Virus record (IMG/VR): IMGVR_UViG_3300049617_000097
Coordinates: 1-44,331 of that record
From: a virus
Reading direction: 5' to 3' (one strand)
Length of the DNA stretch: 44,331 bases
Shown: piece by piece, positions 116-31,641 of the stretch
How the letters are laid out: the number at the start of each line of letters is the position of its first letter
Numbering within the stretch: the stretch's first letter is position 1
The notes under the pieces: generated by a model
Databases searched by the model: none
What the model was told of the DNA's origin: nothing
The model's input: only the letters and a program-made list of their open reading frames with translations
Translations under genes and position numbers: made by a program

Positions 116-209
116 GGCCGAAAAAGCTTGTTCTGATATAGACACTCCTAATCCAAACACAGGACAAGCTTTAATTTTGTCAAAAAAGGATGAATGTTAT
201 GCCGCTTGA
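114..209 (+). CDS. Possible 31-aa leader peptide overlapping the tape-measure start
   Basis: An ATG at 114 opens a 31-codon frame ending in TGA at 207-209, overlapping the tape-measure start at 199 by 11 bases. A weak AGG (102-104) lies 9 bases upstream of the ATG. No family is recognised. The ATG overlaps the TATAAT box at 110-115, so the ORF and that promoter cannot both work on one transcript; translation would need read-through from upstream. It may be a coupling peptide or chance. Confidence 0.25.
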   Translation: MAEKACSDIDTPNPNTGQALILSKKDECYAA

Positions 210-3200
210 TAATTTAGGTCGTGAAATCAAACCCATAACTTGGGAAGATTTTGATAAATTGATAAAAGATGCAGATGAAACAGGTGAAATGAAATTAAAG
301 CCTGGCGTCGAAGGTAAGTCAGAAGAACAAAAAGGTAGCGATAAAACCCAAGAACAAATCGAAGAAAACAGTGCCGAGCTTCTTAAGAAGTTCGATAAAG
401 TGCTTGAATTATTAAGCAGGCTGACTGGCAAAAACTTAAAAGACGAAGTAAAGCAAGCTGGCAATCATCTTAATCAAGCGGTAACTTTCATTGAACCCAA
501 AGGCAAACGTCAAGAATTCAAAAACAAATTTGATTCTATTGGAATCAGCAGAGCCATCGAAGATGGACTAAAGAATGTTACTGAGCAGCTACAATCAGCT
601 TTCCATGTTCGTGAACAAGTAATGCCGATACATATGCAAGCACAAACACCTTCAGTAAGGTTTGACAACAAGCTAGCCGAAATAATGTCTAATGGATTTG
701 CTTCGCTTCTCCAAAAACTAGATCAAGTTGGTACTGATGCAGTCTCAAACAGCCTTGCTCCTGATATGATCGAAAGTTCAAGGACCAGAGAAGAAAGTGA
801 AGAGGCAACTGACAATCTGAATCAGTATAAGCCAACTAATGGAATATTAGATTCACTGCCTACCCTAACTCAACCTTACAAGTTTGATTTCATTGGTCAA
901 GACTATGAATCCTTAGTGCCTGAGAAGAAGACAGTTCATAAGCAACTGCCATTGAATGTTACTAACGACAACGTAAATGCTGTTATGCCAGTAACATCTG
1001 GCATCCCAATCGAGGCGGCGATTAACACTATAACAAGCATGTTGAAATATAAACTAGCTGATGACATGCCAGGTTTATTACCAGTAACGGCTCGGCCTTA
1101 TGAATATCAAGCAATCAATGAATTACCCGACCCTAAACCCATTGTTCAGCCGTTAATGCTGATGGTCATGAACGATATCAGTGATATGCTGCCGACAACG
1201 CTTCAGGTTCCGGTTGAGCCAACATTTGATAACAAAGCAATGAAAGCTCTTGTTAGCAGCACGGCTTTTGAGATGCCAGAGCCTAGAGAGCAAGATCCTA
1301 TTTTCGTTCATTCACAAGAAAGAGAAGTGAAAGACAATCAACTAACAACAAGGCGTATTATAAACAGCAATACAGCTGCATTGCCTCCACCGGCTCGTGA
1401 AAAACAAGATAAAGTATTAGGTTTCCACAATGGCGGCATAGTTCCTGGCTATCCAACTCACAAAGACACTCAGCCAGCCACCTTGAATGTAGGTGATACA
1501 GTCATTTCAGAACCAAAGGTAATGGCTGCTGGTGGACCCTCACACGTTTATAGTAAGATCATGGGCACTCCCCCTAGGGCTTTAGAAAGCGATAGTGGCA
1601 AAGAAGTTGCTGCTGCTTTGACACCTAGAGAAGTTGTCATTCCTGAAAGAAAAGCCACTCCAATTCGCTCCGAATTATTGCAGTTCAATAGAACTGGTGA
1701 CTTCAGTTATTTTGATAACAATGTATCAACTCAAAGCCGTAGCTTAGGGAAAGCACAGCAAACGAAACGGCCTGCTTCTATACTGCCTCAAAGTCTTACT
1801 GTTGGTGGAATTGCTGGAGAATATCAAAAAGGTGGAATTGTTGAAAAGGCTGATAGCATTGCAGATGCCGCCCACGGCAGCATAGGACAAAAACGCAAGT
1901 GGGAAGGTGACTTGCCATATATTGTTCATCCAAGGGCTGTCAGAGATAAAGTAAAAGAAATGGCTGGAATGACAGAAACAGATGAATCCGCTGCTTTACT
2001 GCATGATGTCATTGAAGATGTCGCCATTCCAACAAAGTCAGTCAAGGAATACGAAGATAAAATCCAACAAGAGGTCGGCACAGAAGTTCTTAGCCTGGTA
2101 AGGGAACTCACTCAACCAAGCAGCGGTCCAGAATTCAAAGACAAAAGCAGAGATGAAAAGAATGCTGCTAACTGGAAACATATGGAGGGTATTTCTGACA
2201 GGGCCAAACGACTCAAGATGGTAGACCGATTTGATAATTTGAAAGGTTACAAGAATAATCCTCCTAAGTTTATGAAGAGGTACTTGCCAGAGTCCCGGAA
2301 GGTTCTTGAAATTTGCAGATCATCAGATGAGATTATGGCCAAGGAACTGGAAAATAGAATCATAGAAGCAGAAAATTATCTCAATCAGCAGGAAGTTTCA
2401 GCAGTTGACCTTCCAACAATGCCAGAAGTATCTGCAAAGCCTTCAGGTTATAAGAGAGGAGAAGTGCCGCCTCCTAAAGGCACCCAAGAAATACCAAAAG
2501 GTCACATTAGGGCATATCACTATACCAAAGGAAGTCCAGATGACGTTCTTCGGGATGGCATCAAAATATCTATGGCAAAAGGCCACACCTATGGCGAACC
2601 TGATTTGGTATGGGGATCAACACAGCCACCAGATCCACATCACAACATAGTTGAGTTCCATGTTCCAGCAAAAGACCCAAGCGGAATGGCAGAAAAACCA
2701 TATGGCGACTTAGACGAGTGGCAAAAGGGCAACCATCATATCGGTCTACATAGAGATGTAACGCCAGAAGAAATAATTGCTATTCACGAACATTGGCATG
2801 ATAGGTACAGATACATCCAAAAAAATCCAGACGTTAAGGAAGCTGTAATAGCTGGCGAACACGATAATTTAATTACTGATCCAGAATATGGACCAGCTAT
2901 TCTTAAGGTAAAAAGTGAAGCCGCACAGGCCAAAGTTTCTGTAGAACCTCTAAAAATTCCACAACTAGCTACAGGTGGAATAGTCAAAAAGAGTGCTGGC
3001 GGAACCCTTGTTAATGTTGGCGAGGGCAGATATGACGAAGCAATCATTCCTCTCAAAGGCACAAAACAAACAGCCGCACTAACGGAAGCTTTGAATGTTC
3101 CGACAACAGAAGTTTCTACAAAACTACCGATGCCTGCTGGTCTTGCAAAAGGCAAAACTCCTCAAGGTCTTACTGTCGGCGGGATCACTGGAGAGTATGA

Positions 3201-6200
3201 AGATGGTGGAATCGTAAAATCATCGATAATGAGTGCTGGTGGACCTTCTCATGTTTACAACCAAATGGGCTTTGCTCCTGCCACATTAGAAAGAACTATT
3301 GGTCAAGCTCCTGTTGCTCTGACACCTAGAGAAGTTGTCACTCCTGATGTTGCTGAGCCATTTGAGTTTAATGAAACCGACAATCGTGCAGATGACCTTG
3401 AGTTTGTGTTTGATGCTGAAAAAAGAGTCGCCCTACATCGTGGCTTAAAGCAACCATTCCAAAGATACACTCCAGAGATACAAGAACAGCACGAAAACAT
3501 CAAAGATAGTTACAGGGAATGGGTCGAAAGCGGCAAACTGCCAGAAGCATTCCCACAATACAAACAAATGATGTGGCTTAACAAGATAGGCAAGCCGCAG
3601 TATTTCACTCCTTACAAAGGAGACGCAGAGGAATATGCTGGGCCAGGCGGGGAAGTCGTCTCAATAGAAATCCCTGAAGACATGGCAATGGAAAGCATTC
3701 AATCTATTCTTCGTGATACATATGCATTTTCTGGACAAAACCTTCACGAAATTATTCAGGACTACGGCGTCAAAAAGACAAAAGCATCGACCGAACAAGT
3801 TCCACAGGGATACATGATGTTTGAAGGTGGTGCTGTCCCAAGCAAACCATTGCTTCCGATACCTGCTGGCCTCACAAGAGATGTGGTCCCGCCAACAATT
3901 ACACCGGCAGAAGTTTCTACGGCTTCAGAGCTTGGTCTTACTTCTCCAGACATCGGCGTCAATGTTCCTGACCTTGCCGCTCCTGAGCTTGGGACATTTG
4001 AGGCTCCGACCATCAAGATGCCCGAGATGCCAAAGGTTGATCTGTCGCCATCAACTGTAGCACCACCAGCAAAAAAAGGCCCTGGCATATTATCTGGTCT
4101 CGGTGTCTTAAAAGGCACGTACACAAAGACAAAAGAAAGAGTTGACAAAGCAACTGATGTTCCTGGCATCAAGCAAATCAAGGGTTTAAGTAAAGTAACA
4201 AGTGAATGGATTTACAAAAAACTTGAAGAAAGACATGGACCAGTTGCTGCGAAAGGCATTATTGCCGGTGGGGCCGGAACTGGATGGTTAATTACCTTCC
4301 TTTCTGGATTGCTAACTGGTTTCCCTTTAAGCATTCCTGGCCAGGGACTTGTGCCTGCAATTGTAGCAGCCGAAATTTACAGATTCCTAAATGGAAGTAA
4401 AAAGCCACCTCAAGGTCTTACTGTTGGTGGGATCGCTGGAGAGTATGAAGGTGGCAGCTTAGTAAAAGACAACAGGCTAAGATTCGAAGATGGCGGCGTA
4501 GTGCCTGGTGGCCCGCCTTACGAAGATAAGGTGAAAGCATCACTGCATAAAGGTGATGTAGTTGTCAATAGAGATTCAGTAATGTCTGCCGGTGGACCTT
4601 CTTACGTCCATAACCAGATAATGAACACTACCCCTAGGGTCTTAGAAAGTCAAAGTGGCCAGATAGATACTCTTCTGACGCCTGACGAGGTTGTCATTCC
4701 TGAAAAAACAGCCACACCAATTCTACCTGAGTTGTTGGACTTCAACAAAACAGGCAATTTTAGCTACTTCGACGGCTCCCCGAATACTGTTGTTCAACCA
4801 ACAGGATTTTCTCCAAAATTGCCAATGCCTACTGGCCTTGCCATTTCACCACCAACTTTGATGAAGACGGGTGGTGTAGCAAGCCAAGAAGCATCTGAGC
4901 AAAAAACAACCGTCCTTGGCGAACTTGGCGAACTTTTGAAGAAAGTATCTACAACGAAAAAGAGAGAACGTAATGCTGCTGGGAATACTAACCTGGCTCA
5001 TATCAGGGATCTTATTATGGCCGGGGCAACTCAAGAGGAGTTGAAGCAAGGAATGAAGACATTCACAAGAGGTGAATTGAAGGAAGACACAATAGCAACC
5101 TATATCAGCAAGGTGCGAAAACAAATTGCCGAAGAAAATACAGCGAAACAGGTTGCACCAATAGAAGTTCCAACTACACCGGCAGTCGAAGTTCCACAGT
5201 TTCAGATTGCATTGCCGATGGTTAGGCCTACTATACCAAGCACTAATAATGTTGCTGTTGAGCCGGAATTAAGTAGTGCAGCGGGTGAAATCAAGGAGAT
5301 GCTTAGTAAAGAAATGCCGATAACATTAAGCGAAATCGCTGATTTATTCGAGCCAATAATAAGAATGGCTGAAATGGCAACAAAACAAGAATCTATTAAT
5401 GTAAAAGATACTGAAGCCAGACTATGGTTATCAAACATATCGCATATTTTTAGCAAAGTCACAAGTCAACGTCAGCCAACACCAAAGGCGTCTGAACCTG
5501 AAGAATTCACAGAATGGAATCCGAATAAAATTGGTGGCTTTGACCCTAATTCCCTCAAAGATTGGGTTCATAAAGAGCCAAAATCTCCTGAAGAGTCAGT
5601 CAAACCTAATATTGAACATGACGAAAATGGACCACTCACATTAGGTAACGCCAAGACCCTATTTGAGCCAATAGTAAAAATGGCTAATGAAGCAACAACG
5701 CCAGGCTCGATTTACACAGAAGACATTCAAGTCAGAGAAGTGCTAGAAGAAATACTAGATGCTTTGAAAAAGACAAAGAATCCTTATGTGAAGAGAGCAA
5801 AAGAATTGTGGGAATCGGCTGGTAGACCTGATAAATGGTCATCCAGTGAGAGTGAGTTTACTGAACATGCAAAGCATGAAGCCCTTATGGTTCCTGCTGC
5901 TGAAAAACTAGCCGCTCAGTTGGCAACAAAGATCCCTGGAACTGCTGAATGGGAAGATGAAAAGAAGTCCCTCTTGCCAATAGCACACGCACAATTAGCT
6001 AAGGAGGCACAAAAAGCAAACAGGCCAGAACTTTCACCCGCTGCTATCAAAGCAAGGACTGTAGAGGATCAATTGCTATTTTATACGCACGGACCCGAAA
6101 GGTTGGCAAGCGGCAATAAAACTAAATATACAATGGAAGAGTTTTACAAAAATGATAGGGAAAGACTTAAGACTAATAGAGAAAAACTTAATGTCAAACA

Positions 6201-9200
6201 TGAAATGCAAGAACAGTGGGAAGAGCAGAAAAAAAACATTAAGGTTGATGAACCTAAAGATTTAGCTATTGCCGAGAAGCAAATAAGAAGAGAATTGGTA
6301 ACCAAGGAGGCAGAATCATTACAAGCAACGGCTGGCTACGGCAGAACAAAAGATTTTGAGAAAACAGCCAAGGAAAATCTTTTTGTCGATCCATTGAGAG
6401 ATGTTACGAGAAAACTTGAAGATATTATTGGCAAACCAGCCAAAACAGAAGCTATCGAGCCAACAACGGGCGATTTCTGCAATTGTCTTCATAAGGAAAT
6501 TGACAGATTGATTTTGGCCCTGAAAGGCATGTCAGGAGTGGCTGTTCCTACTGTTAAGAAGAAGTCAAAAGTTGCAAACGCTAAATCATCGGCAAATTTT
6601 GCAGCACCTCCACAAAACGTTACCGCTCCCGCTACTCCTGTTGAGGAACCAGGGATTATAGGTATCGAATCGCCAACAGATTTTGCAATACCTGAACAAA
6701 CTATTGCTACTTCTCTTGCTCCTCCGGTGGTCACGGATATTTCTCCAGTTCCACCAGTTCAAGGTATTCAGCCTACTGGATTTGGTGAACAAGTTATTTC
6801 TCCATATACTGTTCCGGTTCAAGGGACTCAACCTGTTCCGCCAGTTCAAGGTATTCAGTCCACTGGATTTGGTGAACAAGTTATTTCTCCATATACTGTT
6901 CCGGTTCAAGGGACTCAACCTGTTCCGCCAGTTCAAGGTATTCAGTCCACTGGATTTGTTGGGCAAATAGTTTCCCCTGCTCCTGGATCGATAGCTCCTG
7001 CTCAAAGCATTATTCAAGGGACTGCTCCTGCTGCTCCAATACAGCCAAGCATTGTAGAAGGTTTTCAAGGTGCCCCACCTATTCAGCCAAATGTTGTTCA
7101 AGATATTTCCTTTGCCTCTCCTGCCCAGCCAGGAATTCAAGGGACTCCTGTTGTTCCGCCTGCTCAGCCAGGAACTACAGGCTTTGAGTCGCCAACAAGT
7201 TTCATGGCACAATCACAAACTGCCGGGGGGCCTCCTGGTGCAGGGTTTGCAGATATTGGGACCGCTATTGGAAACAGTCCTGGAGAAGCGACTTCCAGTG
7301 CAGGTTTTTCCGGCGTTGGTGGCATAATCAGCAGTATTGGTGGATTTGCTGGCAGCACTGTTGGTGGCCTTGCTGATGTTGTTGTTCCTGGAGATGGCGA
7401 ACTAGCTGCCGGTGCTGCCGGTGCTACAGGTGCTACAGGTGCTACAGGTGCTACAGGTGCTACAGGTGCTACAGGTGGAGAAGAGTTCTGCAATTGCCTC
7501 AATACTGAAATTAGCAGACTTATCAAAGCTATTGAAAAATGCTTCCATGATATAATCAAACAACTTGCTGATGCTATCGCCATTGCTCTCGTCGTCGCTT
7601 TAACTGGTGGTATTGGTGGTGCTGCTGTTGGTGGAGAAGCCGCCGCTGGCGAAGCTGCTGGTGCAGGGGCCGGTAGTGCTATTCCTGGAGCAGCCGCAGA
7701 AAGTGAAGGTGGGTTTTTAAGTAAATTTGGATCATACCTTGGATCTCTGTTTTCACCTAGAGATAAAAAAGAGGATAAAGAAAACAAACACCCAGGCAGA
7801 AAAGAAGATCCATTTGACGCCCTAATTGACGCCCTAAAGCATTACTTTGACAGAAGAAATGTCATTAGAAGAATGGGTGAAATAATGACATCAGAAAACC
7901 AGGATTTGGTTGGAAACCTGCTCCATACTTTCAACATCGGAGACATGGCGGGAGGTTTCATAAAATTGGGAACAAAGTTAGTAAAAACTATATGGACAGT
8001 AATATCGAATCTGTTCGTAGATTCAGTTTCATTGCTGGGAAAGGCTCTTAAAGGATTATTTGGTTTGATTGGTCTTGGCTGGCTTATTTCTCCTATATTT
8101 GACTTCCTAACATCTATCTTTAGTGGAGTGGCAACCTTTCTCGGCAAAGTTGTTGGAGTTCTCGGAGAAGCCCTAGGTAGCATCGTTGGCGGTTTGTTAA
8201 ATATCCTTTCTAAGGCAATAGCCGATGAAGCAAAGTACTTCCAAGCTATAAGACAATCTTTATACCGAGTAGAAGGTATCAACAGAGGTCCGGCTGTCAA
8301 AGAAGACTTTGGTCCACCCGAAGAAGGCAAACAGATGCCCAGACGAAGTACAGCGTTCGATGCAAATTGGGCAAAGCAAGAAGAGGCAATTAAAAAGTAT
8401 CTAATAACTTTAGACGACATTAGAGAAACTGGCCAGTCTATGACTGTGTTGCAGCAAGGTCAACTTAGACTACAAGAACGTGGCATTAGAGCTTTAGGAG
8501 TTGAAAATCGTGTAAGAAACACTGGTCTGCATATTGCTAAGCAGTTAGGAATGCACGCTGAATCCACTCTCGATATGTTTGCCGATATGCATCAAGGTTT
8601 GCAAATGGGCGTATTAGACCTTCACCAAATGGGTCTTAATATGCGTTATGTTTCAGAACAAACTGGTCTCACCGGGGCTTCTCTTGCAGAAGTGGTAAAA
8701 CAGTCAAAACAGTACATGACCAATATGCGGAACGCAGGTACGATGACTACCGGAGCGGGTAGAAATACGATGCAGCTACTTGCCGAAGCAACCACAACTG
8801 GAACAACTGAAGGAATGGGTCATTTACTTCAACAACTATCACAAAGCGTTTTGACAGGAGAAGGTGGTCCATCCAGAAACTTAGCCTTTATGGCCACTGG
8901 AATGTCTGGAGCAAATAGCGGACAGTTAATGGAAGACCTGTTGGGTGGAACGATATTGCAAAGCAGAAGCAGCATGCAGGCTTTCGCCGATGGTCTCGAA
9001 AACACCATGATGTTGTTCACGAACAACAGAAGGCTTGATGAAATCAAAGACGCTAACGAAAGAGGCAGAATAAGTGCTATGATGAGGCAGTCTATAGGAG
9101 TTGGGCTGCAAGAGCTTGATTTGCTTGCTACTAACTTCCGTAGAGCAAGCCGTACTTTCGCACAGGTTTATCAGGATATCAAAGACAACAAAGACTTAAC

Positions 9201-12200
9201 AGAAGTCCAAAGAGATCAACAGTTGGATACTGCTGCCAGCAGAGAAATAATGGAGCAGTTAACAGAATTTGGCGGCATTCTCCGTAGAAACCAGGGAGCA
9301 AATGTGGGATCGCTGGTTCAGGCGTTCAATCAGTCTCGAAGTACAGAAGTGCAAACTAACATAGGTGCCATAAGCAATATCAACGCAGAAGGTAATGTCA
9401 GTGCGAATGTTGTAAGCATGTTAACATATGCTATGGAAAGAATCCAAAAACAACGAGCAGAGTTGAACATGAAGCCGTTACCGGCAGGCCAAGAACTTAC
9501 TCCTCAGAGACTTACTGATGCAATGTCAAGGGGCACTGCCGGTATGCAAGAATTATTGGCTCAAATAGCTGAACAAAATCAGCAAATAGCTGAAGAACGA
9601 AGAGGTCAAGCTGACCCTATTACCCGCATAGAAAAAATAATCAACGAAATAGTAGGCTATTTAAGACTAATTGCAAATGCTATTATTGTCGCATTTGGTC
9701 AAATTGCAAATGGAATGATAGATGGATTAAAAGGCCCAGTGGCAGATATCTTTAGTGGTCAGGGCGAAAAGATGACTAAAGGGTTCGGAGAACTAAGAGA
9801 CTACATCAGGAATTTCGATAACACAGCGAACACGATGTTGGGCAACATAAACGCAAACATGAAAGATGGATGGGAAAAAACAGTAAGTCAGATCACTGTT
9901 GTTGTAATTCAATACATAATGAAAATCGTAGAGGCTTTGATAGAGACCTATGAATGGTTTAAGACCACAGCAGTACCTTGGCTAATCCAGATGTGGGATA
10001 ACATCTTGGCATGGTGGAAAGATACAGCATGGCCTTGGCTAAAGGATGAATTATGGCCAGGGATTGTTGCAGCATATAAGACCGTAGAGGGAATTCTTAT
10101 AGATATTTACAAATGGTGGACAGACACTGCTTGGCCTTTCCTGAGAGATAATTGGCCAGCACTTCTAGCCATTTTAGGTCTTATTTTAATTGCTTGTTTA
10201 GCCAATTCCAATCCTCTACTGTTATTGGTCGCTGCTGTAGGTGGTATAGCTGCATGGTTAGCCAATAAATTTGGTCTTGACCCTGTTGGCGGTGCAGCAG
10301 GTGCAATGGGTGGTATGGCAATTGGTGCTGGAATAGGAGCATTTGAAGGCCCCCTCGGTGCTGTAATAGGCGGTGCAATAGGTGCCATAGCAGGCGGCAT
10401 AGTAGGTGCTATATGGGGAGAAATAAGAAAAGAAGAAGCAGCTAGAGAGGCAGAAGGAAAAGCCGCTGCCAAACAGCTTGAGGCACACCATGCACGGATG
10501 GATCAAATCGCCCAAGAAAGAATTAACTTCGAGAGAGAAATCAGCAGGCAGGCTGAGGCAAGACTGGCCAATGAAAGAAGAGTAACTGCTGAAATCGAAC
10601 AAAGAGAAAGAAATGCACTTGCACAGGCACAAAGATTACGAGAAACAACTGGTGTTGACGTGCATAATCCTAATGCAAACATAGCTGATATCAGGGCACA
10701 TGTTACTACAGAACAAATTACAGCCAGACAAAGATCTATGTTCCCGGCAGATACTCCACACACTAGACAAGCTTTAACGCCCATAATTCAAACACAAACC
10801 ATAGGGGCTCAAACAAGACTTACCGATGCTCAAAGAGAATTGGAACAGGCAGAACAGGCACTTGCAGCAAGCCAGCAAACCATACAAGGCAATGCTACTT
10901 CACAAGCAAATATTAATACTGAACTAAAAAGACTGGCTACTCAAAGAGAAAATACGAATGCTGAGATTGAAAGCCAGCAACAACTTATAAACACTCGGCA
11001 AAGATGGATGCAAACTGGAAGAAATGCAGACGGCAGCCAGGTCAGTACACGACAGAGAAGTACCTATGAGGCACAAATTGCAGGGGCTCAAGGTGAACAG
11101 GTCAGGTTGCGAAGAGTGTTAACACAACTTGCAGAAAGCATACAGGAGCAACAAAATAGAAGAACTGGCATAGCAGGCGGATCAAGAGATGCAACGGCAG
11201 CCAATGAGGCAGCATCTAGGAGAAGAGATGCGGCACAGGTGGGAGTGGCAACGGCTGCACACAATCTACAAGAAGTGCAAATGGCCGGTGCTGATATGTT
11301 GGCTCATCATATTGATCCAATACAACAAGGACGAGCTGATTTGCGAGAAGCTGTAAGGGATTTAGGAAGAGGCCGAGCAAGTGCAAATACATCACCAGAA
11401 CAAATGTTTAGACTTCAGGCTGGATTCGAAACCAGACTTGGAGAAGCACTTAGGGCAAGTGGAACTGATGAAAATATAACCAAACTTGCCGACATATACA
11501 AAGAAGAAATGATGAGGAATAGTCCAGCAAGTCTTATTAACACCAGAGAAGGTACGGCCAGCAGAAATATTATGAGCCAACAATTGACTATGGCGGAAAG
11601 ACAGGCTAGGTTACAAGAAGAACAAAATAGGTTAATGAGAGAATTTCATGATGCTCAACAGCGAAATGACGCTCGTCGTCAAGCAGAATTGCTTGCAGGA
11701 CTGGCTGAAAATTCTTTGATGCGACAAGAGGGAATGCAAAGATTACAAGCAACGGTTGCCGCTATGCGAAATGTTATTGGCCCAGAAGGTGTAAACCAGG
11801 GCTATTCGCAAACATTAATAACTGCACTGCAAAATGAAGGTGGAATAGAAGGTGTACGACGCAGAACAGGTGGCAGAACAGACCCGACCACTCCTGGTAT
11901 ATCGCAAGCTGAAGCTAATGCTATCAGGGCTCTTGAAGAGTTTCATCAAATACAAACACTGCGAACGAGGGCAGAGGCTCCACAACCAACTACTGGTGGT
12001 GAACAGGCCGTATTGCATTGGCAACAAGACACTGCAAGAGCAAGAGAAGGTTTAGCCTCAAGAAGACAACAGGCACAAGCAGAAGCGGCAGCTACAGCCA
12101 TATGGACCCATGTCAATCAAGCTGGAGGAACAGTACAACAACAAATGGATACGGCTGTAAGCTTATGGCGAGAAGTCATTCCACAGGAACAACTACTCCA

Positions 12201-15200
12201 GGCACCACCGGCCCAAACAGCTTTAGGAATCCAAAGCACTGGTAGGCGTCAATTATATATTCAAGGTCAAACTCAGCTACTGCAACAGCAGATGTTGGAT
12301 GCACAAGCAGGTCGTGGCGACTTTGGACGACGTACTGGTGAATCAGCCACCGCACATCTTCAACGACAACAACAACAATATGCCCTGTTCGCACAGCAAA
12401 TTGCCGCACTACAGAGTATAGGCACACAGGGTTTGTCTGAGGTGGCAGAAGCTGCCGAATGGATTGCCACAGCCGGACATCATGCAATGGGAGTGGCACC
12501 GGAAGATCAAGCACTAGCTCCTACCGTAATGCCTCAGTGGCTACAATTGTTAGTAAATAGAAGAAGTAATGCCCCGGTAGCCCCAGGAGCAACACCACTC
12601 ACCACTCAGGCACAGGCACAGTCTCTCTTGGCTGATCTTCTTAGAGAATTGAATGCCCGTGGAGATAATCTTCTTGGTACAGCCCGCACAGCGGCAACAG
12701 CAGCACCCGACAGCGATATTGGACTGTTACAGAGACAACTTAACGCCCGTCCACCAGGACCAAGCAATTCCCGACCAGTGAGTGATTGGCAAAATGATAC
12801 ACAAGCTATGCTCAATACAACGACAAGAAGGTTACAAATTGAATTTGCTACCCAATATCAAATTGTGGCAAGAAATGTAGACCCTACCAATCAGAAGGCT
12901 GTTGCTGCTCAGGAGGTTGCTGCTATGCGATTAGGAGAGATTAGCAACCAGTTGGCTTTATTACAAACATTATATCAAAGTGGCGTAAGTGGCAATAGGT
13001 TTACGACAGCAATTGGTGGTAATTTACAAAACATGATGAATGCTGCAAACGCTGCCACTATCGCTCTGCAAAATTATGAAGAAGCTTTAGATAAGGCCAG
13101 AGAGGCTGCTGGTAATTTGGCTACAAGTTCAGAGGAGTATCAAGATTTACTTGACCAATGGACGACTCATGGAGAAGGAGCAGGATTACTTGCTGAATTA
13201 AATGCTGCAAGAGCTAACCTTGATAGATTGTCCGGGCCTCTCACAACTAGCATTGCGGGGGTTCCAACGACTGGTGAAGGAGCCGTCAGAGATCCGAATA
13301 TCATCCTTCGTGAACTTCAAGAAACAATAAGAGGACTTCCTGGGGTTGAAAGAGAAATAGACACTCAGTTATTGGCACGATTCCCAACATCTGAAGAAAG
13401 ACAGCCAGTAATAGCAAGAGAAACAGTAGCTCTTACAGAAACAGTAAATAGAATGTTGGCAGGGCGTGGTGATCCAGGCACGCTCAATCCACAAACGCTA
13501 TTGCAAAATTTGTATCGATTGATTGTGCTGCAAAACATACAAGGAATACAAACTAGCCCAAGTGTATCCGCCGTAACAGCTATCGATAGCATAAATCGCA
13601 ATCCATCTGTTCAGAATATACAACAAAGTGTGACTCAATTTGAAACTGCAATGGGACAAATTGCAAGAGGCGTTGGCATGCACGGAGCAGTTGTCCCGGT
13701 AGGGCCAGTGCCCACAGATGGCACAGCAAGACGAACGGTAGCATTGCCAACATATGCTCCACTTCCAGTTCCTGCTCTTGGCCAAACGCTTTCACCTGCA
13801 ACCTTCCAGCAGCTTACTGCAAGATTGGAAGAAACAGCTAGAATTTCCCTTCAAGATCGTCTATATGATCGAAACAGACCTGGCCTGCCAAATAATTTCT
13901 GGAGAATGATAGATGCTAATAGTCAGTTAGATGCTGCTGGACAACCAACAGTAAGAAGGAATCTTTTTGAGACAGAAGAAAGACAAATATTAGAAAGATT
14001 ACAACATGCTATTGAACATGGCAACGATCAACAAATTACTCTACAATCGTCGCAATTAGCTGAATTGAGAGAAGGTAACAGAATTGCCCAACGAATGACG
14101 GAATCCCAAAATGCATTGCGAGCAGCATTCGCAGCAAGAGGTCGGCCAGAACTGGCCAACGTAGAAGCAACTGCTTGGAGAGACGCAAAAAGAAATTGGG
14201 ACGCAATGGTTGCTCCAGTGACAACAGGAAACTCATTAGGAACTGGACCGGCATTGCCAGGTACAAGAGGAGGTGTTGGAGGGGCATCACCAGGAGTGCA
14301 GAGTGCTGATTTACAAGCTCAAATGGCAATTAGTATGAACCGCCAGACGATAAGGCAACAGGATAGAACTCAATTGATGTCGTCGGCACAGGAGTATCTT
14401 TCTCGTTTAGGGCCAAATCAACAGGCTGATGTAAATGATCGTGGCATGAACGCTTATGCAGCCGTCGCTCGGTTCGGAACTCGTCGTGAAAGATTAGTTG
14501 AATACAACCGTATCATGCCGCAATTACAGACAGCACTCCAAAGTGCTTTAAGTTCTTATCGAACTACACCAACAGACAGCACATTCAGATCGTTCCAAGA
14601 AGCGGCACAAAGAGTAGCCCAAGCAGAAGAGGGATTGAATGAGCCGGTCAATGTGTTCAATGAAGCTGTAGATTTATTCCAGCAAGCCACAAATAAATTT
14701 GACGAGTCAATTAGAGCATTAGATCCTAATGAACAAGCCAGGTTGAGAGATCAAGCATTGCAAAGACTGAACCAAGCATTAAACACTCTGGCCAATGCAA
14801 ATGTAAACGTTCAAGAATACGGGAACGTAATGATGCAACAAATCAGATCGTTAGGAAGAACTAGCGATGGTAGAACAAGAACTCCTCAAGAAATCATTAC
14901 TGAGATTCAAGCAGTACCTGAAGTAGCACAAACTATACAACATCCAGAACGGTATGCAACTTTCAACGCAGATTATGCAAGAATCCATGATGAGGTAGTC
15001 AGAATATGGCAAGAGTTACAAACTCTTGATACCACTACTGAAGAGGGACAAGATCGTGAAATAGCAATTTTAGACCGCTTGCGAAGCGATGAAGTTAGAC
15101 GAATTGCTCCTTTTGAACAAAGATTATTGGAAGCAATGAGCGGCATAGAAGAATTAAATAGTGACTGGGAAGAGTATTTGACATTGACCGGAGGATATCA

Positions 15201-18200
15201 TAGTCAAGAAGATGATTTAACATACCGACGTATGTTAGAAGATCAATTCAATAACTTCAAAGGTTTGTTAGACCAACAAGCAATGTTCCAGTTAGCCGCT
15301 CGAAACGTTCGCCCAGGCCAGTTAGAGGCTGCTGTAGCAAACCCACAAGCTCTTAATGCAGCATCGGCACAAATAATGTCGCAGATTATTCAGTCGCTAA
15401 CACCAAGATTGAGTCAACAACAGTTTCAACAACATCCTGTTTATGGAGCATTGTTACAAACAGGACGTGGAGGTTATGTTGCCCCTGCTGAAAGAGAAGA
15501 TGATTGGGAAACCTGGGAGAGACAAGAATCTATCAGGAGAACTCGTACTCAATGGCGTGATACTCAAGTAACACAACGACAACGACAAATTGATCTAAAT
15601 CCTAACAACGCAGCGTTGGTAACACAGATGCAACAGGAAATAGCTGCTATTCAACGAATCCATCAAATGATCACAAGTGAAGATTACTTAGGTCAAGAAG
15701 ATGTTGCATATTTCCGTCGTCCAGCGTTAAACAGAATAGGAATGCCACAACCTCCAACTTTACATCCAGCAACTGGAACAACTCCAGCAATTCCTGCTCC
15801 TAGATTTAATGAAATTCCTGGCAATTTAAGCGGTTTTACTTCCAGCATCATGGATCAGTTTTTCCGTGGCACATCGAGCCCCTTCTACCAGCCAACCGCT
15901 GCGGATACACAAATGCCAGGAGTTCAAAGTGGTCTTGCCGCTTTGGCAGGCGTGGATTGGACGCCTAATGCCCAGCAAAGACTGCAAAGCAGACTTAACG
16001 CAGTCAATGGTGTGTTGCAGTCACTATGGACGAACCACAGTCGTATTTTGAATGCACATAACCAATCAATTGATGCTGGTGGGGTGGGTAATCAGGAAGA
16101 AGTCTTAGAGTCTCAGAGGCAGTTCCTTGCTGCCATGCGAATATTCGCAAGGCAAATTCCTGAGCTTGGCAACATGTTACTGGAATATCAATTACAAGCA
16201 GTTAGAATGCCTACACCAGACGAAATTGCCGCCCAACCTCAGCCTCAATTGCCAGCAAGTCCATCGGCTTTGAACTTCCACTTAGGCCGTATTGATCGAA
16301 GGGATACCAATTCAGAAGAATTCGAACAATCGTTGCAGCAACTATTTGTGCTTGCCAGACAACATCCGGCAGTGGTTACTGAATTCATAACTCCTTCCAT
16401 TAATATTGCAAGAAGTCAAGCAGCACTACCCGAGACATCAGAAGCAGACAGGATGCGTCTTACGTCACAAGCTGATGTTCTTCAGTGGTTGATAAACAGA
16501 GTGCAATTGGTTGGCCAACCGGCTCCTCCAATGCAAATTCCTAATTTTGCCAACACGCCTGTACATGCCATCCTGCAACCTGGACAAGTTGGTCTTCATC
16601 CTATCACTCCTGTTCCTGTTCCGGGGGTCCAAGGTAGCCCTGTTCAAGGTCTGGCTGGTAGTTGGAGACCGGCAACTGGTGGTCAACCAACGCCTAGCGA
16701 CAGTGGTCAGCCTGGCGGCACTGCACAACCAGTTCCTAGTGGTCAGCCTGGCGGCACTGTTCCTGCTCCTCGATTTGGTGGTATTGGCGACGACATTGTT
16801 CGACTCCTTGATGATCTTATTCAAGATGCTGTTCGTCTCGCTCAGCAGGGAGCCGCTGGACCTCCTGCTCCACAACCACAGCCTGTTGTGCCTCCTACTC
16901 CTAATGGCAATGGTGGTCCACCTGTGGTGCCTCCTGTTCCACAACCACAGCCTGCTCCTAGTGGCAGTGGTAGTGGCGGCGGCGGAAATGCTACACCACC
17001 TGCTCCTCCTGCTGTGCAGCCTAATATTCCTGCTCCTAATGGCGGCGGAAATGCTACACTGCCTGCTGCTCCTTCTGTTGGACGTGGTGGTTTTGGTGGT
17101 GGTTTTGGTGGCATGCCAAACATGTTTCCGCCCCAAACACAAGCTATGCCAGCACCAGTTGTTGAAGGATTACCGCAGCAACAAACAAGCATCTTTGATA
17201 GGTTGCCATTTGGTCAACAACTACGATCAAGATTGCGACAAGGATTTGGTGGTGGCGTTGGTGGTGGACAAGCCGGTAGCGGAATGGGTGGTGGCGTTGG
17301 TGGTGGACAGTCCGGTAGCGGAATGGGTGGTGGCGTTGGTGGTGGACAGTCCGGTAGCGGAATGGGTGGTGGCGTTGGTGGTGGACAGTCCGGTAGCGGA
17401 ATGCCTTCTCAAGGATTGCCAATACAAATAACCCCACCACCACCGATAACTCCAAATATTCCTCCTCCAACTTCAACAGGAAGTGGTGGAGGAATATTTG
17501 GTGGTCCAGCAGGACCGTTGCCAACAGGAGCTACAAGTTCGACTCCAACGGTTGGTGGTCCAGCAGTCCCAGCAGGTTCATTGCCAACAAGTGGAAGCAT
17601 AATTGGTCCAGCAGGTCCAGAGGGCACAGGAACAATTGTTACAGGTACGCCTGTAGCTCCACCTGGCCGACCTTCATCTGGCCAAGCTTGGCAACCAGGC
17701 AGCGGTATGGCACTGGATCTTAACAACCAATTATCACCAAACGACCCGTGGCGACAAACTGTTCAACATTTTATTACTCCAGATGGACGACAAAGAATAG
17801 CTGGTCGTGTGATGCAATTTACTGGTGCTGTAATGCAGGCAATTAACAACCGAATGCCAGTGCCGCAGTCGAATACGGGCGTTCTTCTTAATCAACAAGA
17901 ACAAGCAGTATTGCAGGCTCAAGGTGTCCCTAATTGGATTCAATACATAGCTGGGAGAAGAACCTTCAGAGTTGTTGATGTTCATCCTGGTGGTGATCTA
18001 ACCAAAACGGAACGAAGATTAAAAGATGTCACCCAAAATATTATGACTCAACAGGAGCAAGATGCTCCAGAAACCTCACCAGGAATAGGAGGAGGTTTTA
18101 TGGCACGATGGATAAGAGGCGACAGAACAATTCCTGATAGTCCACCATTTTTTGGACAGCCATTTGTAGGCCAGGCTGACAATGGTTACGCACAGGGAAA

Positions 18201-20361: not shown

Positions 20362-20691
20362 ATGGCTGTAAAAATCGAATACGTATACAAACATGCGACT
20401 GCATATGTTCATCCAACAAGCCGTTATGCTGCGTCCCAGGTGATCTTGCTTGGAGAAAAAAAAGTCCCTGCCTTTGCCTTATACAAAGGCAGGAATAAGG
20501 ACATGGCGATACAGAACATGCAATGGACTGAAATCGCACCCAATGTTGAATATAGACCAGACTTGGTTTCCTATGAATTGTTTGGAACACCTGATTTTTG
20601 GTGGAGATTGCTTGAAATAAACGGCATGAGTGACATTATGGAATTCAAAGCTGGTAGAACAATTTTAGTTCCTAATTCATTATTACCTTAA
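20362..20691 (+). CDS. Baseplate wedge protein, gp53-like (109 aa)
   Basis: The C-terminal half reads PDLVSYELFGTPDFWWRLLE followed by a helix and a short GRTILVPN strand. This matches the T4 gp53-like family, in which 'D.ISY..FG....WW.I...N.I.DP......G..L.IP' is typical; the family resembles LysM-like tail proteins. It lies between two baseplate genes and has an AGGAG site just upstream of the ATG. Length is shorter than T4 gp53 but usual for compact relatives. A perfect 10-bp inverted repeat lies inside the gene (20467-20493). Confidence 0.7.
   Translation: MAVKIEYVYKHATAYVHPTSRYAASQVILLGEKKVPAFALYKGRNKDMAIQNMQWTEIAPNVEYRPDLVSYELFGTPDFWWRLLEINGMSDIMEFKAGRTILVPNSLLP
20467..20493. repeat. 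Perfect 10-bp inverted repeat inside the gp53-like gene
   Basis: Arms CCTGCCTTTG and CAAAGGCAGG flank a 7-base loop. It would form a stable mRNA hairpin about 105 bases into the gene. No T-tract follows. Its role is unknown. Confidence 0.7.
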
Positions 20692-20699
20692 AGGAGTTT

Positions 20700-23312
20700 A
20701 TGGCTATTTACGAGCCTGGCAGATGTAATACTGGTTATTGTTATCCTGATTATATCAAAAACGACATTAAAAAATACACTTTTGGCAACTGCACAAAAGA
20801 TGGCTATGCGGGCGGTCAACCTTTTGCTGTACCCAATGGCACAATCATAAAGACAGCACTGAATGGGGCAGTCGTTAGTCCTTGGGTCAGGCTACGTTTT
20901 GAGGGTGAATATGTACCGTGGTCTAATACGCTAAAAGCTCCTCCAGGCTTCTGGGACTACACAGAAATTACTACGGGTAACATTTCACAGCCAGGCTGTG
21001 CAGGGCCAAATAACTACAGGCCCAAGGCGGGCGTGTCAACCACTACTATTATTAGTTCAGTCCCTCCTTGCCTTGGTCCAGTTTTCGACCCTGCCTGCAA
21101 CACACTGAATACACCGAACCCTGTAATTTACGAACAATGCATGGAAAAATGTCGAGCAGCCATCAAATTATTCCAATATAGCTGGGGAACTATTGATTCA
21201 GGCAACAAATGCAAAGTGACCATAGTAGATGAACTCGGCAGTTCATTGAGTCAATGGATAGGTCGTCTATTTAGAAATCCTACAAATACTCCAATCCAGG
21301 TAATAAATCAACCACAAGGGGCACCATCTCGTTTTACCAATACCCTTCCTCAAGGTTCTTTCTACAAAATGAAAGTAACTTTTGGATGGTTGATAGTTGG
21401 CGGGGATGATGATAATTGTCCGGTTGATGCAGCGACTATGTATAACAATTTAGTAACTTGCAGTCCAAGTTCGACAACAGTAGATGGCTGGACAACATTT
21501 ACTTCACCTGCAACCGCAGCCGCAACCAGTAAGCTAATTTGCAGTCCACCGCTTTATTTCATTCCTGACCAATTAAATGTCCTGGTAACTAATGGCAGAT
21601 ATGTTTATGAAATTGAAGGTATTGATGCTTTGAACCGTGCCCAGGATCATACTTCGCAAAGAACTTATGGCAACCAAAGAAATCCAATGCATTTTGCTCT
21701 TGCTGTAAAAAAAATGGCAGCAGAGTCATTCCCACCATTTCAGGTAGACTTTCTTCAAAGAAATCCAAATCCAAGTTCGCCGACTACGATTGATTATCAA
21801 CCTATGCTGTTTACGGTGGTTCCAGGAACTACCATTTTTACAAGGGGTGGAGGACAATTTCCATTCGGAGGAGCAACGCCGCTGCCACCAAACCCAATTG
21901 ATGGTGGAGGAACACCTTTAGTGCAAGGCGGTACAGCCGCAACCGATACAATATGCCTGCCTGGTAGTATTAGTGTACGTGATATTTCGACAGTGCCGCC
22001 AACGCCACCACCGTGTCCACCGCCACCGCCATGTCAAACACCTCCGTGCCCTGTACCTCCGTGTCCTATAGTTCCAGGCCCTCCAATTGGCAATTGTTTC
22101 TTAGGTGGTTTGCGTGCCCATGAAAGATTAGGAATGCTTGGTGTATGGCCATGCAATGGACGGAATCCTTTGCAAACTATTCATAATTGGTTAGCTAACG
22201 TTTCCTGTCAGGGATTACCAACTAATGGTACAACTCCTCCTGCAAGGCGTGGCATAATAGCCAATTTCGATCCAACTTTTGTTGGGTATGATACCATCAC
22301 TGGTTCAAATGGTAGACCAACCCCGATTCGTCTTACGGGCAGACTCATATTATGGGCTGATCCGCACCCTAATTGTGCTAATATGAGTAACAACAACACA
22401 AACGTCAAAGCTGCCTATCTCGTTAATGGAGGCAGTTGTAGTCCTGTTCTAAGTTTTAATCCGACTATGAGATGGAACTTCCAGGCATTGGCTACCTCTG
22501 GCGGTAACTTAACTACAGAAACAGGGCGAGCCGGACCAACTACTGATGCCAGACAGCTTTTAGATTGCAATTTGCCAGGGCAAGGATTGTCGCAACAAAC
22601 AGTAGTGAGCGGCAATTTTGGCAATCAAATCCCCAGACTGGCTCAACCTCAAATGACTGCAAATATGGCTGCACATAGGCGGGCCAATATACTAACATAT
22701 GCAGTAGAAGCGGAATTGAAAGTACAAGGAGACCCAAGCAATTTCGCTTGCAGTCCACTTTTTGGCACCGGCCAACACTTAGCTTTGATCGTAACAAACC
22801 CATTCTATATATCAAACCCATTGAATAGTGATGGAAGCGAAGATACTACCGACACCAGCAGCGGTGGCTGTAATGCTGTTTGGACCACTTTGACAGCAAG
22901 CAGTTGCAACACCATACTCACAAGTGATAGATGGTTCATCAAAGGAGTCGATCATCAGATCAAAGAAGGTTCATACGTTACTACTTACAAATTATTCTTA
23001 CCAGCACCTGGCAACGAAGTAAATCCTACTAAGTTAGTTCCGCAACCAATAAGACCGAGATCAACGGCAATGACTTCAATTCCAAACATTGAGGCCCCTG
23101 TATCATTAGGAGGGTATTATGATCCTTTGATTGTAAATCCAGCACAAGGCGTAACTCAATGTGCCCAGGGGACCAGTGCGTGTATGATTGACAGCACTTC
23201 ACCTTATGAACCAACTGGCGAAGTGGATTATGCCGTTGGAACGGTAGGAACAAGAAAAGGAACTGGAACATTTTGTGAAAGTTTCTGCGACTATGTTATG
23301 GGACCAATATAA
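20700..23312 (+). CDS. Large Cys/Pro-rich baseplate hub-like protein (870 aa)
   Basis: Probably the baseplate hub under the spike, related to P2 gpD/T4 gp27. Supporting features are RYVYEIEGIDALNRAQD near the middle and a late DRWFIKGVDHQIKEGSYVTT strand followed by a LFLPAP segment; 'V..V.H.I..G.Y.TT..L' is typical of hub proteins. It is about twice the usual hub length and unusually rich in cysteine. A polyproline stretch with regularly spaced Cys (about 21990-22085) looks like a hinge or a disulphide-bonded stalk between two halves. A GGAG site lies just before the ATG, 8 bases after the gp53-like gene. The hub call is moderate; the N-terminal half is unassigned. Confidence 0.5.
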   Translation: MAIYEPGRCNTGYCYPDYIKNDIKKYTFGNCTKDGYAGGQPFAVPNGTIIKTALNGAVVSPWVRLRFEGEYVPWSNTLKAPPGFWDYTEITTGNISQPGCAGPNNYRPKAGVSTTTIISSVPPCLGPVFDPACNTLNTPNPVIYEQCMEKCRAAIKLFQYSWGTIDSGNKCKVTIVDELGSSLSQWIGRLFRNPTNTPIQVINQPQGAPSRFTNTLPQGSFYKMKVTFGWLIVGGDDDNCPVDAATMYNNLVTCSPSSTTVDGWTTFTSPATAAATSKLICSPPLYFIPDQLNVLVTNGRYVYEIEGIDALNRAQDHTSQRTYGNQRNPMHFALAVKKMAAESFPPFQVDFLQRNPNPSSPTTIDYQPMLFTVVPGTTIFTRGGGQFPFGGATPLPPNPIDGGGTPLVQGGTAATDTICLPGSISVRDISTVPPTPPPCPPPPPCQTPPCPVPPCPIVPGPPIGNCFLGGLRAHERLGMLGVWPCNGRNPLQTIHNWLANVSCQGLPTNGTTPPARRGIIANFDPTFVGYDTITGSNGRPTPIRLTGRLILWADPHPNCANMSNNNTNVKAAYLVNGGSCSPVLSFNPTMRWNFQALATSGGNLTTETGRAGPTTDARQLLDCNLPGQGLSQQTVVSGNFGNQIPRLAQPQMTANMAAHRRANILTYAVEAELKVQGDPSNFACSPLFGTGQHLALIVTNPFYISNPLNSDGSEDTTDTSSGGCNAVWTTLTASSCNTILTSDRWFIKGVDHQIKEGSYVTTYKLFLPAPGNEVNPTKLVPQPIRPRSTAMTSIPNIEAPVSLGGYYDPLIVNPAQGVTQCAQGTSACMIDSTSPYEPTGEVDYAVGTVGTRKGTGTFCESFCDYVMGPI

Positions 23313-23320
23313 AGGAGAAC

Positions 23321-25495
23321 ATGTTAGGATTAAGAGATGAGCTTACAACTGTATGGAAAGTAATCGAACGCCTTCAAGAAAGTATGAAAAAACTTTCAGC
23401 GAAGAACGGCGAACTGAGAAACTTTATTAGCAAAAGACTTAAGAGGCTAAGGCAAAGCGACAAAACTCTTGGAGTTCATTTGGCACTTGTCGTAGACACA
23501 AACGATCCTTGGAAACAAAACAGAGTACGTTATTTTAGTCCTGTATTTAACATTACCAAGGATCAAGGGTTGAGTAGTTCTTACTATGGTAATCTTACCA
23601 CTACAGTAGACCAAACAGAATGGGCATGGCCTATTTCTTCTTTGGGTGGCTTTGATGATAGCGGCTGCACATGGATTCCTCCTGCCGGATCAACTGTTTG
23701 TATCTTGTTTCAAAACGGCAATCCAAACAAAGCATTCTATATTGGCACGACCTGGCAAAGATGGAGAGGTCCAGAAAACCAAACAGTATGGAACTATGAC
23801 ATACCGGAATACAACAAGCTATGGAAGGGACATCGCAAAGGATACATGGTTGGAGCCAATGATGAATCACAAGCACTCCCTCCTGACAACACAGACAATT
23901 ATCAAGGCTATGATTTTGATTCAGACTTTGACATAGATTTTCAAGAAGATGCTTCTGAAAGAACTACATGGCCCCACATGCATGTTATCAAAACCGAAGA
24001 AAAGCATTCCATTATAATGGACGATGGTGATCCAAAGTGCAATCGTCGCTGGAAAAGATTTCAACTCATGTCCAGTTTAGGACATCTGTTTCTGATGAAA
24101 GATGATCCTTATCACCATTGTGGCGACTGGGTTAATCCAAAATGCAAAGAAAGATTCTATGAAATACCCGAGACGGTTTGTCTTGCCAATTTGGTAAACA
24201 AACTTCCTGTAATGTCTCAAATTGAAATTCCATTTCCTTCATCAACTTCTTTCAATACAGAAGAAGTGCTTTACACTTGTCCGCAAGGCCCAGACTATTG
24301 TCCTACCCTGCCAGTACAGCCTAATAGACCTGTAGAAGCTGAATATTTGGGAGATGAACACCTATGTCCTGGCTTTCAGCCACCGACTAATTCTACAACC
24401 ATACCAGCAGATTGTCTAAACATGATGGGGGGTGCTGAAAAACTTTGTTTTAGTTTCAATAATGAAGGCCGCAACAAATATCACAAACAAAAACAGGAAT
24501 GTTTTCCATTTCTGGCAGGCAGATGTGCCTTGGTTCAATCAGGCATGCAGTTATTATCTCGCTCCCAGGCGACATTGGTATTTGATGATTCCGTTGAAGA
24601 ACCAAGAGAAAGACCGGAATGGGAGAGGGCTTTGCAGCCATTTGATATGGACGGTTGCACGGGTTGTTTCAAAGGCCGCACCTTTCTTCGGTCTGCTACT
24701 GGTCATTATCTTTTGATGGACGACTCAGAAGATCAACCGAAAATTAGAGGCCGGAACAATGGTGTAACTCTTGGAACGGCTTGCGGCAATGTATTTAGGA
24801 TGTCCGATTGGACCTTAGCTAATGGGATTGCCGGTCCTGGGAGAGGTGTTCATATTGGCAGTACTGCCAATATGACGATTGATTTGTGTGACGATGGCAA
24901 CATTCAATCGAGTGTTGAACGGGATGGATGTGCTAAAACTGTGGCTTGGTCAAAACAAGCTTTCATTAGACTTCGCACTGGGTATGGAATTCAGGTATTA
25001 ATGAGCGATTCTAACGATCAAACCCAGACTGATCAGCAATACTTCCAGATTTTATGCCCGCAGACAAGCAACTTACAACGTGGTTCGCATATCTTTCATA
25101 TGCAGGAGCGTGCTACTGGGCCGGGACAAATCTTTGTCAAGGCTGGGGGTGACTATATCGTTCAAACCTATGATGATATGATTGAAGTAGTGGGAGATGA
25201 AAAGGATAATCCTTCGAACAAACTAGAGTTTGTATCTAATCAGAAAATAGTAAGTGTACAAAACGTTTACTATAATAAAGCTAAAACTCATGTGTTTTGG
25301 GCGAATGATTTTATCTTTCTCACAGCGGGCCAGGATTGCGGCAGCGGCAGCCCATGCGTTTATCCAGTTGTTGTGGCAACAACTGGTATTCCTGAATATA
25401 TAACGGCAATGACTGGTCTTAAAGCCAGCGAACATGTGTTCGCCTCGGCCATAAAGCAACCATGTGATCCATGTGACGTATTGGCAAGTGATTAA
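23321..25495 (+). CDS. Baseplate spike, gp5/VgrG-like OB-fold protein (724 aa)
   Basis: Probable puncturing spike. After a coiled N-terminal helix (residues 1-48), residues about 50-145 form an OB-fold: VRYFSPVFN, WPISSLGGFDDSG, GSTVCILF and AFYIGT, as in gp5, gpV and VgrG proteins. Later repeated strands of the type 'GHxxxMDD' (near 24001, 24084, 24700 and 24997) match the beta-rich stalk of these spikes. No lysozyme domain is visible. AAGGAG precedes the ATG. It lies between the hub and gp25-like genes, as expected. Confidence 0.7.
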   Translation: MLGLRDELTTVWKVIERLQESMKKLSAKNGELRNFISKRLKRLRQSDKTLGVHLALVVDTNDPWKQNRVRYFSPVFNITKDQGLSSSYYGNLTTTVDQTEWAWPISSLGGFDDSGCTWIPPAGSTVCILFQNGNPNKAFYIGTTWQRWRGPENQTVWNYDIPEYNKLWKGHRKGYMVGANDESQALPPDNTDNYQGYDFDSDFDIDFQEDASERTTWPHMHVIKTEEKHSIIMDDGDPKCNRRWKRFQLMSSLGHLFLMKDDPYHHCGDWVNPKCKERFYEIPETVCLANLVNKLPVMSQIEIPFPSSTSFNTEEVLYTCPQGPDYCPTLPVQPNRPVEAEYLGDEHLCPGFQPPTNSTTIPADCLNMMGGAEKLCFSFNNEGRNKYHKQKQECFPFLAGRCALVQSGMQLLSRSQATLVFDDSVEEPRERPEWERALQPFDMDGCTGCFKGRTFLRSATGHYLLMDDSEDQPKIRGRNNGVTLGTACGNVFRMSDWTLANGIAGPGRGVHIGSTANMTIDLCDDGNIQSSVERDGCAKTVAWSKQAFIRLRTGYGIQVLMSDSNDQTQTDQQYFQILCPQTSNLQRGSHIFHMQERATGPGQIFVKAGGDYIVQTYDDMIEVVGDEKDNPSNKLEFVSNQKIVSVQNVYYNKAKTHVFWANDFIFLTAGQDCGSGSPCVYPVVVATTGIPEYITAMTGLKASEHVFASAIKQPCDPCDVLASD

Positions 25496-25497
25496 TT

Positions 25498-31532: not shown

Positions 31533-31641
31533 TTGTCTGCTCCTGCCGCAAAATATTAAAACCTCGACAAAAATACAACTTAACAACTGAAACTTCTTTG
31601 AGCAAGTCCAATAGTCAATAGAATCTTACTAGTTTAAGAAC

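Follow-up and report, generated by a model that had tools for sequence, protein, structure and literature searches.

A small-alarmone-hydrolase-type HD domain inside the very probable tape-measure protein of a contractile-tailed phage

Why would an enzyme domain of nucleotide signalling lie inside what is very probably the tape-measure protein of a phage tail, and what could it do there? The question is raised by IMG/VR virus record IMGVR_UViG_3300049617_000097, a single metagenomic record of 44,331 bases that may be a fragment and is analysed here at its full length (the window). A single uninterrupted frame of 19.5 kb (190–19743, plus strand) opens the window and encodes 6517 amino acids. 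An earlier note, made from the sequence alone, had placed a SpoT/MESH1-type HD hydrolase domain in this frame and suggested that the phage may deliver a preformed alarmone hydrolase with its DNA and so blunt the stringent response, or a nucleotide-signal defence, ahead of all phage gene expression.

The domain occupies residues 548–733 of the open reading frame (ORF), at 1831–2388 on the plus strand, and is recognized by Pfam HD_4, by PHROG 990, by its fold and by alignment with a free-standing gene. Pfam HD_4 matches with an E-value of 2.6e-10 and 40.7 bits against a cut-off of 27.2 (42 bits in a second scan), and PHROG 990, described as 'metal-dependent phosphohydrolase', matches with an E-value of 9.7e-24. 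Among individual sequences, phmmer recovered Drosophila Mesh1 (3nqw, E = 8.4e-8) and human MESH1 (3nr1, E = 3e-6). The NCBIfam model spoT_relA gave a local match (E = 6.4e-13, 47.9 bits) that lies under the cut-off of 499.2 set for the full-length model, and Pfam found no RelA_SpoT synthetase domain in residues 1–2000 (E-values up to 1) or in residues 2001–6517 (E-values up to 0.1). The HD_4 score above cut-off, the PHROG 990 match and the SAH fold described below confirm the SpoT/MESH1 type; the span first proposed, 1850–2330, was right in location, but the domain runs somewhat further. Judged by sequence and model together, residues 548–733 are a complete small-alarmone-hydrolase (SAH, MESH1-type) HD domain; because it is embedded in a 6517-residue ORF and is not a free-standing single-domain protein, we call it an SAH-type domain rather than an SAH.

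An AlphaFold model of residues 530–960, computed with an input alignment of 56 other viral sequences, reached a predicted local distance difference test (pLDDT) score above 90 over most of the HD part and was poorly resolved after about residue 750. Foldseek returned 26 PDB matches with E-values up to 0.001, all of them small alarmone hydrolases, MESH1, Rel or SpoT. In VIA-align, the 11 best rows were all SAH or MESH1 (Z 20.0–21.6), headed by C. glutamicum RelH (Z 21.6, root-mean-square deviation 2.5 over 176 residues), and human MESH1 superposed with Z 21.1–21.4 (root-mean-square deviation 2.4–2.5 over 170 residues). Comparisons of the kind that the earlier note had named, with HD_4, Rel structures and human MESH1, gave significant profile and fold matches. 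SpoT followed at Z 18.4, a (p)ppApp hydrolase at 15.7, lmo0812 at 14.1 and other HD hydrolases at 13.3 or less; Rel/RelA chains ranged from Z 17.4 down to 9.8, so that some long Rel chains score like other HD proteins.

The active site can be followed residue by residue on the plus strand: R569-K570, Y577 and metal ligand H580 lie at 1894–1929, metal ligands H605-D606 and the catalytic pair E609-D610 at 2002–2019, and K676, metal ligand D679 and N683 at 2215–2238, all placed by residue alignment. The motifs and the residues H580, H605, D606, E609-D610 and D679, which had been picked out from the letters alone, sit at these numbers and in this order, and superposition combined with the residue alignment predicts that the four ligands converge on one metal. 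In Acinetobacter baumannii SpoT, as described in PMC9974481, changes at Y51, E82, D83 or N147 abolish hydrolysis and an H54/H78 double mutant cannot bind Mn; by motif spacing, the equivalents here are Y577, E609, D610, N683, H580 and H605, respectively. Conservation was counted over columns filled in at least 80% of rows, the comparison set being 56 other viral rows (the best 80 of at least 466 confirmed viral loci from at least 600 pattern matches, with near-copies removed). The window domain keeps all 19 columns that are invariant in those rows, and 13 of 13 when the six touched by the retrieval pattern are dropped, an agreement that is favoured because the 80 loci are those most similar to the window. 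Agreement with the consensus extends to 66 of 169 well-filled columns (39%) and to 29 of the 41 conserved at 90% or more.

By its sequence features, the carrier ORF is very probably the tape measure of a contractile-tailed phage, the case being made by the long open frame, gene order, hydrophobic segments and weak PHROG matches. It lies directly upstream of baseplate genes, in the position held by proteins of 1060–1989 residues in five related phages. This gene order is common to the window, LR756511.1 (595 kb), IMGVR_UViG_3300036766_002289 (390 kb) and three shorter contigs, and the window phage is a relative of known huge phages. The counterpart frames in the five relatives measure 1641, 1060, 1419, 1989 and 1408 amino acids; their similarity to the window protein falls within residues 2617–3200, and a core common to the related phages spans residues 2647–3026 (8128–9267, plus strand). 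A further short contig, L117, has the downstream genes without the tape-measure core. PHROG tape-measure families match at residues 916–956 and 1433–1474, on linker motifs (phrog_934, E = 9.9e-5; phrog_12798, E = 5.2e-4), while residues 3362–3692 match PHROGs without known function and a tail-associated-lysin family (E = 1.9e-7 to 1.4e-4). Since the tape-measure matches are weak, and since the counterparts of the two relatives tested gave no match to a PHROG tape-measure family, the name rests on position and size. The ORF is three to six times longer than its counterparts; if tail length followed its 6517 residues, a rule of 0.15 nm per residue would give a tail of about 980 nm, and much of the extra length may be payload rather than tail length. 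Two repeats were also seen in the protein, a Gly-rich tandem repeat GGGQ[AS]GSGM in its C-terminal third (period 13 residues, four copies, 17260–17400) and a Gly-Ala-Thr repeat of six units at residue 2411.

The origin of the domain can be approached through the same relatives. It is absent from the tape measures of all five, and its closest relatives among the matches listed are separate genes in two of them, away from the tail genes; of the new evidence, this is the strongest. The 390-kb record holds a free-standing hydrolase at 245 kb and its tape measure at 330 kb (50% identity to the window domain), and LR756511.1 holds them at 103–104 kb and near 572 kb, respectively (40.6% identity). 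The fused domain aligns with the free-standing protein of the 390-kb record from its first to nearly its last residue. In a tree of 68 viral hydrolases (midpoint root; bootstrap not fully settled), the window domain and the two free-standing genes form one clade with support 100/97, on branches of 0.6 for the window domain and of 0.49 and 1.3 for the separate genes. Because the domain is complete, aligns end to end and groups with the separate genes of its relatives, the simplest reading of these sequences is capture, by the tape measure, of an entire hydrolase gene from within the same phage lineage. Across residues 1–2000, the seven other records searched gave a match to the HD domain and to no other part. 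The LR756511.1 hydrolase gene (L002:19989-20528) carries an in-frame TAA in mid-domain and is perhaps broken, recoded or affected by a sequence error. Each of the two phages also has a second, more distant HD_4-type gene (G001:C1:228677-229063, below the Pfam cut-off, and LR756511.1:245590-245973).

Scans for near relatives, in collections that may lack records very close to the window, returned only the 390-kb phage and no second copy of the fusion. Among the best 80 of the viral loci, 78 lie in frames of 167–216 amino acids, one in a frame of 255 and one (L045) in a frame of 769. The best 80 of at least 348 confirmed bacterial loci comprise 47 in frames of 600–900 amino acids, the length of long RSH proteins, together with 24 in frames of 260 or fewer, six between and three above 900. 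No tail or tape-measure name stood under the match among the phage matches listed (40 and 60 overlapping rows; 185 records matched), many of which are unannotated or named 'hypothetical protein'. L045, the sole other large-frame case among those best 80 viral loci, has a viral ORF of 766 amino acids (L045:9551-11851) that joins an HD_4 domain (60.1 bits) to other parts, including an ADP-ribosyltransferase (ART)-like stretch and a zinc-ribbon-like part recognized by eye only.

Linkers of a recurring type border the HD module. The set LTVGGIAGEY..GGIV, AGGPSHVY and LTP[RD]EVV occurs in three copies, near residues 415–555, 994–1050 and 1410–1500. A motif scan placed the first linker region (GGIVPG..., AGGPSHVY, LTPREVVIPE, LTVGGIAGEY) directly before the HD domain at 1405–1830, the second copy after the HD module at 3169–3354 and the third at 4417–4719, all on the plus strand. 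Two further modules on that strand, one following the HD domain (2389–3168) and one between linkers (3355–4416), have an ART-like look at residues of about 775–880 and 1081–1170, respectively. This is a by-eye suspicion, and no ADP-ribosyltransferase identity is claimed; searches gave no significant match. NCBIfam, PADLOC, PDB, plasmid searches and viral-contig scans returned nothing for either module, and Pfam gave only rows far below cut-off, such as the large-polyvalent-protein domain LPD39 in the second module (E = 0.11, 12.6 bits against 27), which disappeared with tighter borders. Phage searches stayed at chance level (E = 0.8), related phages gave only weak rows (E = 0.07 and 0.03), and AlphaFold did not resolve the modules (pLDDT 33). 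A broader proposal, which we put forward tentatively and think more probably wrong than right, is that the N-terminal 2600 residues form a payload region in which repeated linkers separate captured enzymes, and that a preformed alarmone/tRNA hydrolase would be injected with the genome, waking starved hosts or disarming toxSAS before phage gene expression.

What, then, might the HD domain do? The reading we prefer, to which we give about an even chance, is that the free-standing SAH gene of the lineage was built in its entirety into the tape measure, where it lies in the N-terminal part with tape-measure-type linkers on either side. The fused domain would remove the 3'-pyrophosphate from (p)ppGpp, (p)ppApp or toxSAS-modified tRNA ends in an Mn-dependent manner. 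Travelling in the virion within the tape measure, it would enter the host with the DNA or just ahead of it, refold after ejection and help to infect starved or toxSAS-defended cells from the first minutes. Delivery and enzymatic activity are both inferred. PaSpo of Salmonella phage SSU5, a small alarmone hydrolase with 35% identity to the window domain over 85% of the query, is reported to counteract the toxSAS FaRel2 by removing the tRNA modification that this toxin makes (PMC11559606), and it has been co-expressed for the purification of CapRel, since it neutralises other toxSAS toxins (PMC9712102). Tape measures are probably ejected with the DNA; phage 80-alpha has three, with their N-termini near the head and their C-termini at the baseplate (PMC11661146), so that, by extension from 80-alpha, an N-terminal domain would be among the last parts to exit, shortly before the DNA. 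One tape-measure-related effector has been proposed to refold once it has left the tube (PMC13277306).

Whether a few delivered copies would suffice depends on rate and cell size. The kcat on ppGpp is given as 7 s-1 for XccSAH (PMC9765508) and as 17 s-1 for Mesh1 (PMC7644958); a RelSeq fragment is slower, with a kcat of 0.16 s-1 (PMC7644958). With a kcat of 7–17 s-1, an assumed 3–6 copies, no resynthesis and full rate, a 1-fL cell would be cleared of 10 µM ppGpp in 1–5 min and of 1 mM in 96–478 min (approximately 1.6–8 h), and a 0.1-fL cell would be cleared of 1 mM in 10–48 min; an enzyme as slow as the RelSeq fragment could not clear ppGpp at this dose. Erasing a full stringent response is thus feasible in a very small cell, and delivery may be of consequence where cells are small or the stress is mild, or where tRNA is to be repaired. 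Of the interpretation first offered, an HD domain with an intact active site inside a tape measure (so named by position and size) holds, but the blunting of the stringent response meets a problem of dose: it is feasible at 0.1 fL and doubtful at 1 fL.

Several points weigh against delivery of a working alarmone hydrolase. In a large cell with millimolar ppGpp, the dose of three to six copies is weak, and erasure of the full response is doubtful. The tail tube is approximately 4 nm wide (PMC9022992), by our estimate too narrow for several folded domains of roughly 20 kDa lying abreast; unfolding, a staggered arrangement or cleavage of the domain would then be required. In 80-alpha, the tape measure frequently appears in fragments (PMC11661146). 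The window domain deviates in 12 of the 41 columns conserved at 90% or more, just one tape measure with an HD domain was found, and the identification of that protein draws on gene order and size, with weak PHROG support. The substrate, moreover, cannot be read from sequence because the substrate range of the family is wide.

The last point leads to a substantial minority possibility, namely that the main substrate is something other than (p)ppGpp, such as (p)ppApp, pyrophosphorylated tRNA 3' ends or NADPH. XccSAH works most efficiently on pppApp and accepts NADPH as well (PMC9765508), SAHMex has negligible (p)ppGpp activity (PMC7644958), and PaSpo of SSU5 acts on toxSAS-modified tRNA (PMC11559606). 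A tRNA nucleotidyltransferase gene lies near the tail genes in two related phages (L006:24657-26204 and L109:11652-13178), and such an enzyme together with an alarmone/tRNA hydrolase would suit the repair of tRNA 3' ends. Mesh1, however, accepts G as well as A alarmones, and hydrolysis of NADPH by Mesh1 or MESH1 was not seen in one study (PMC7644958); several substrates may be used at once, so alarmone hydrolysis stays compatible with this alternative. The main rival concerns timing, and we regard it as unlikely though not negligible: tape-measure protein freshly produced in the infected cell, or its N-terminal portion after cleavage, would be soluble and would remove alarmones or repair tRNA during virion production, the copies in the particle being a by-product. 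The dose favours this pool, since an assumed 300–600 copies would clear 1 mM ppGpp from 1 fL in 1–5 min, compared with hours for the 3–6 delivered, and the fragmentation seen in 80-alpha would fit a cleaved piece. A separate gene, as in the two related phages, would nevertheless suffice for late action without enlarging a virion protein, which leaves the fusion unexplained.

Far less probable is that the captured domain is kept as a spacer or folded block with no enzymatic role. The great expansion of the tape measure, to 6517 residues from the 1060–1989 of its relatives, does suggest that inserts are tolerated, but the domain retains every column that is invariant in the other rows despite the 39% overall agreement with the consensus, and its branch (0.6) is longer than that of one free-standing gene (0.49) and shorter than that of the other (1.3). 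Least probable of all, and very improbable in our judgement, is an assembly or frame artefact that wrongly joined a hydrolase gene to a tail gene. The fusion is known from a single metagenomic fragment and was not found again in the near-relative scans; against an artefact, the 19.5-kb frame is uninterrupted across both domain borders, base composition is even there, and tape-measure-type linker motifs stand on both sides of the HD domain. An artefact or chance match was rejected on the open frame, the HD_4 match, the even composition, the AlphaFold model and the SAH fold Z-scores.

Downstream of the giant ORF, a run of baseplate genes (20362–29265, plus strand) was assigned from PHROGs, Pfam and conserved gene order. 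It comprises wedge-like genes (20362–20691, 25498–25881 and 25850–27454; PHROGs), a hub-like gene for a 724-residue protein (23321–25495; Pfam Phage_base_V) and two conserved proteins without a PHROG match, placed by gene order (20700–23312 and 27448–29265). The counterpart of the ORF at 20700–23312 in one relative (L114:6767-9964) encodes 1066 amino acids and includes a stretch that resembles window ORFs 30294–31586 (minus strand), 39123–40085 (minus strand) and 43186–44127. The ORF at 43186–44127 has a match to a LAGLIDADG homing endonuclease family; intein or homing-gene traffic is a possible source of this shared stretch.

If the preferred reading of delivery is true, the tail would be a delivery device for an anti-signalling enzyme, and the fusion would join phage alarmone hydrolases with enzyme-bearing tape measures. 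It would allow one to test directly whether enzymes delivered by tape measures work in the cytoplasm, and how a folded domain passes a 4-nm tube, with the related phages that have a separate hydrolase gene as natural controls. A further question on which it bears is whether large phages ready a starved or defended host ahead of expressing their genes.

Compared with known systems, the window domain is like the SAHs (MESH1, C. glutamicum RelH, Pseudomonas aeruginosa SAH and PaSpo) in fold, HD_4 profile, metal ligands, E-D pair and further active-site residues; the solved SAHs, however, are chains of 172–193 residues and their viral relatives mostly frames of 167–216, whereas this domain lies within an ORF of 6517. 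HD-alarmone phosphodiesterases of jumbo phages are the same enzyme class in large phages and have been proposed to act against the stringent-response alarmone and that of related immune systems (Iyer 2021, PMC7824862). That survey counts them as one of at least six phosphodiesterase families and names the tape measure once, as a DNA conduit and not as a carrier. Polyvalent proteins are large, multidomain and predicted to be injected with phage DNA, and they include enzymes of nucleotide signalling, as proposed here (Iyer 2017, PMC5512222). They carry RelA/SpoT synthetase domains, the opposite reaction to that of the window hydrolase; the main text of that paper does not use 'tape measure' or 'HD domain', and in the window ORF one enzymatic domain is recognized. 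Motif 3 of the TM4 tape measure is an enzyme motif that aids infection of stationary, non-growing cells, but it cuts peptidoglycan (PMC1796659), whereas the targets of the window domain would be cytoplasmic, either nucleotides or tRNA. In the contractile injection systems of Sle1/Tme, tape-measure-like proteins deliver effector domains (PMC13277306); these are not phages, the effector part is C-terminal, and that paper nowhere uses the words alarmone, ppGpp or HD domain. The earlier statement that no described tape measure with this domain was known agrees with our searches of open-access literature, in whose listed papers and passages no tape measure with an alarmone hydrolase appeared. The parts are thus known from separate systems, and their combination in one protein appears to be new.
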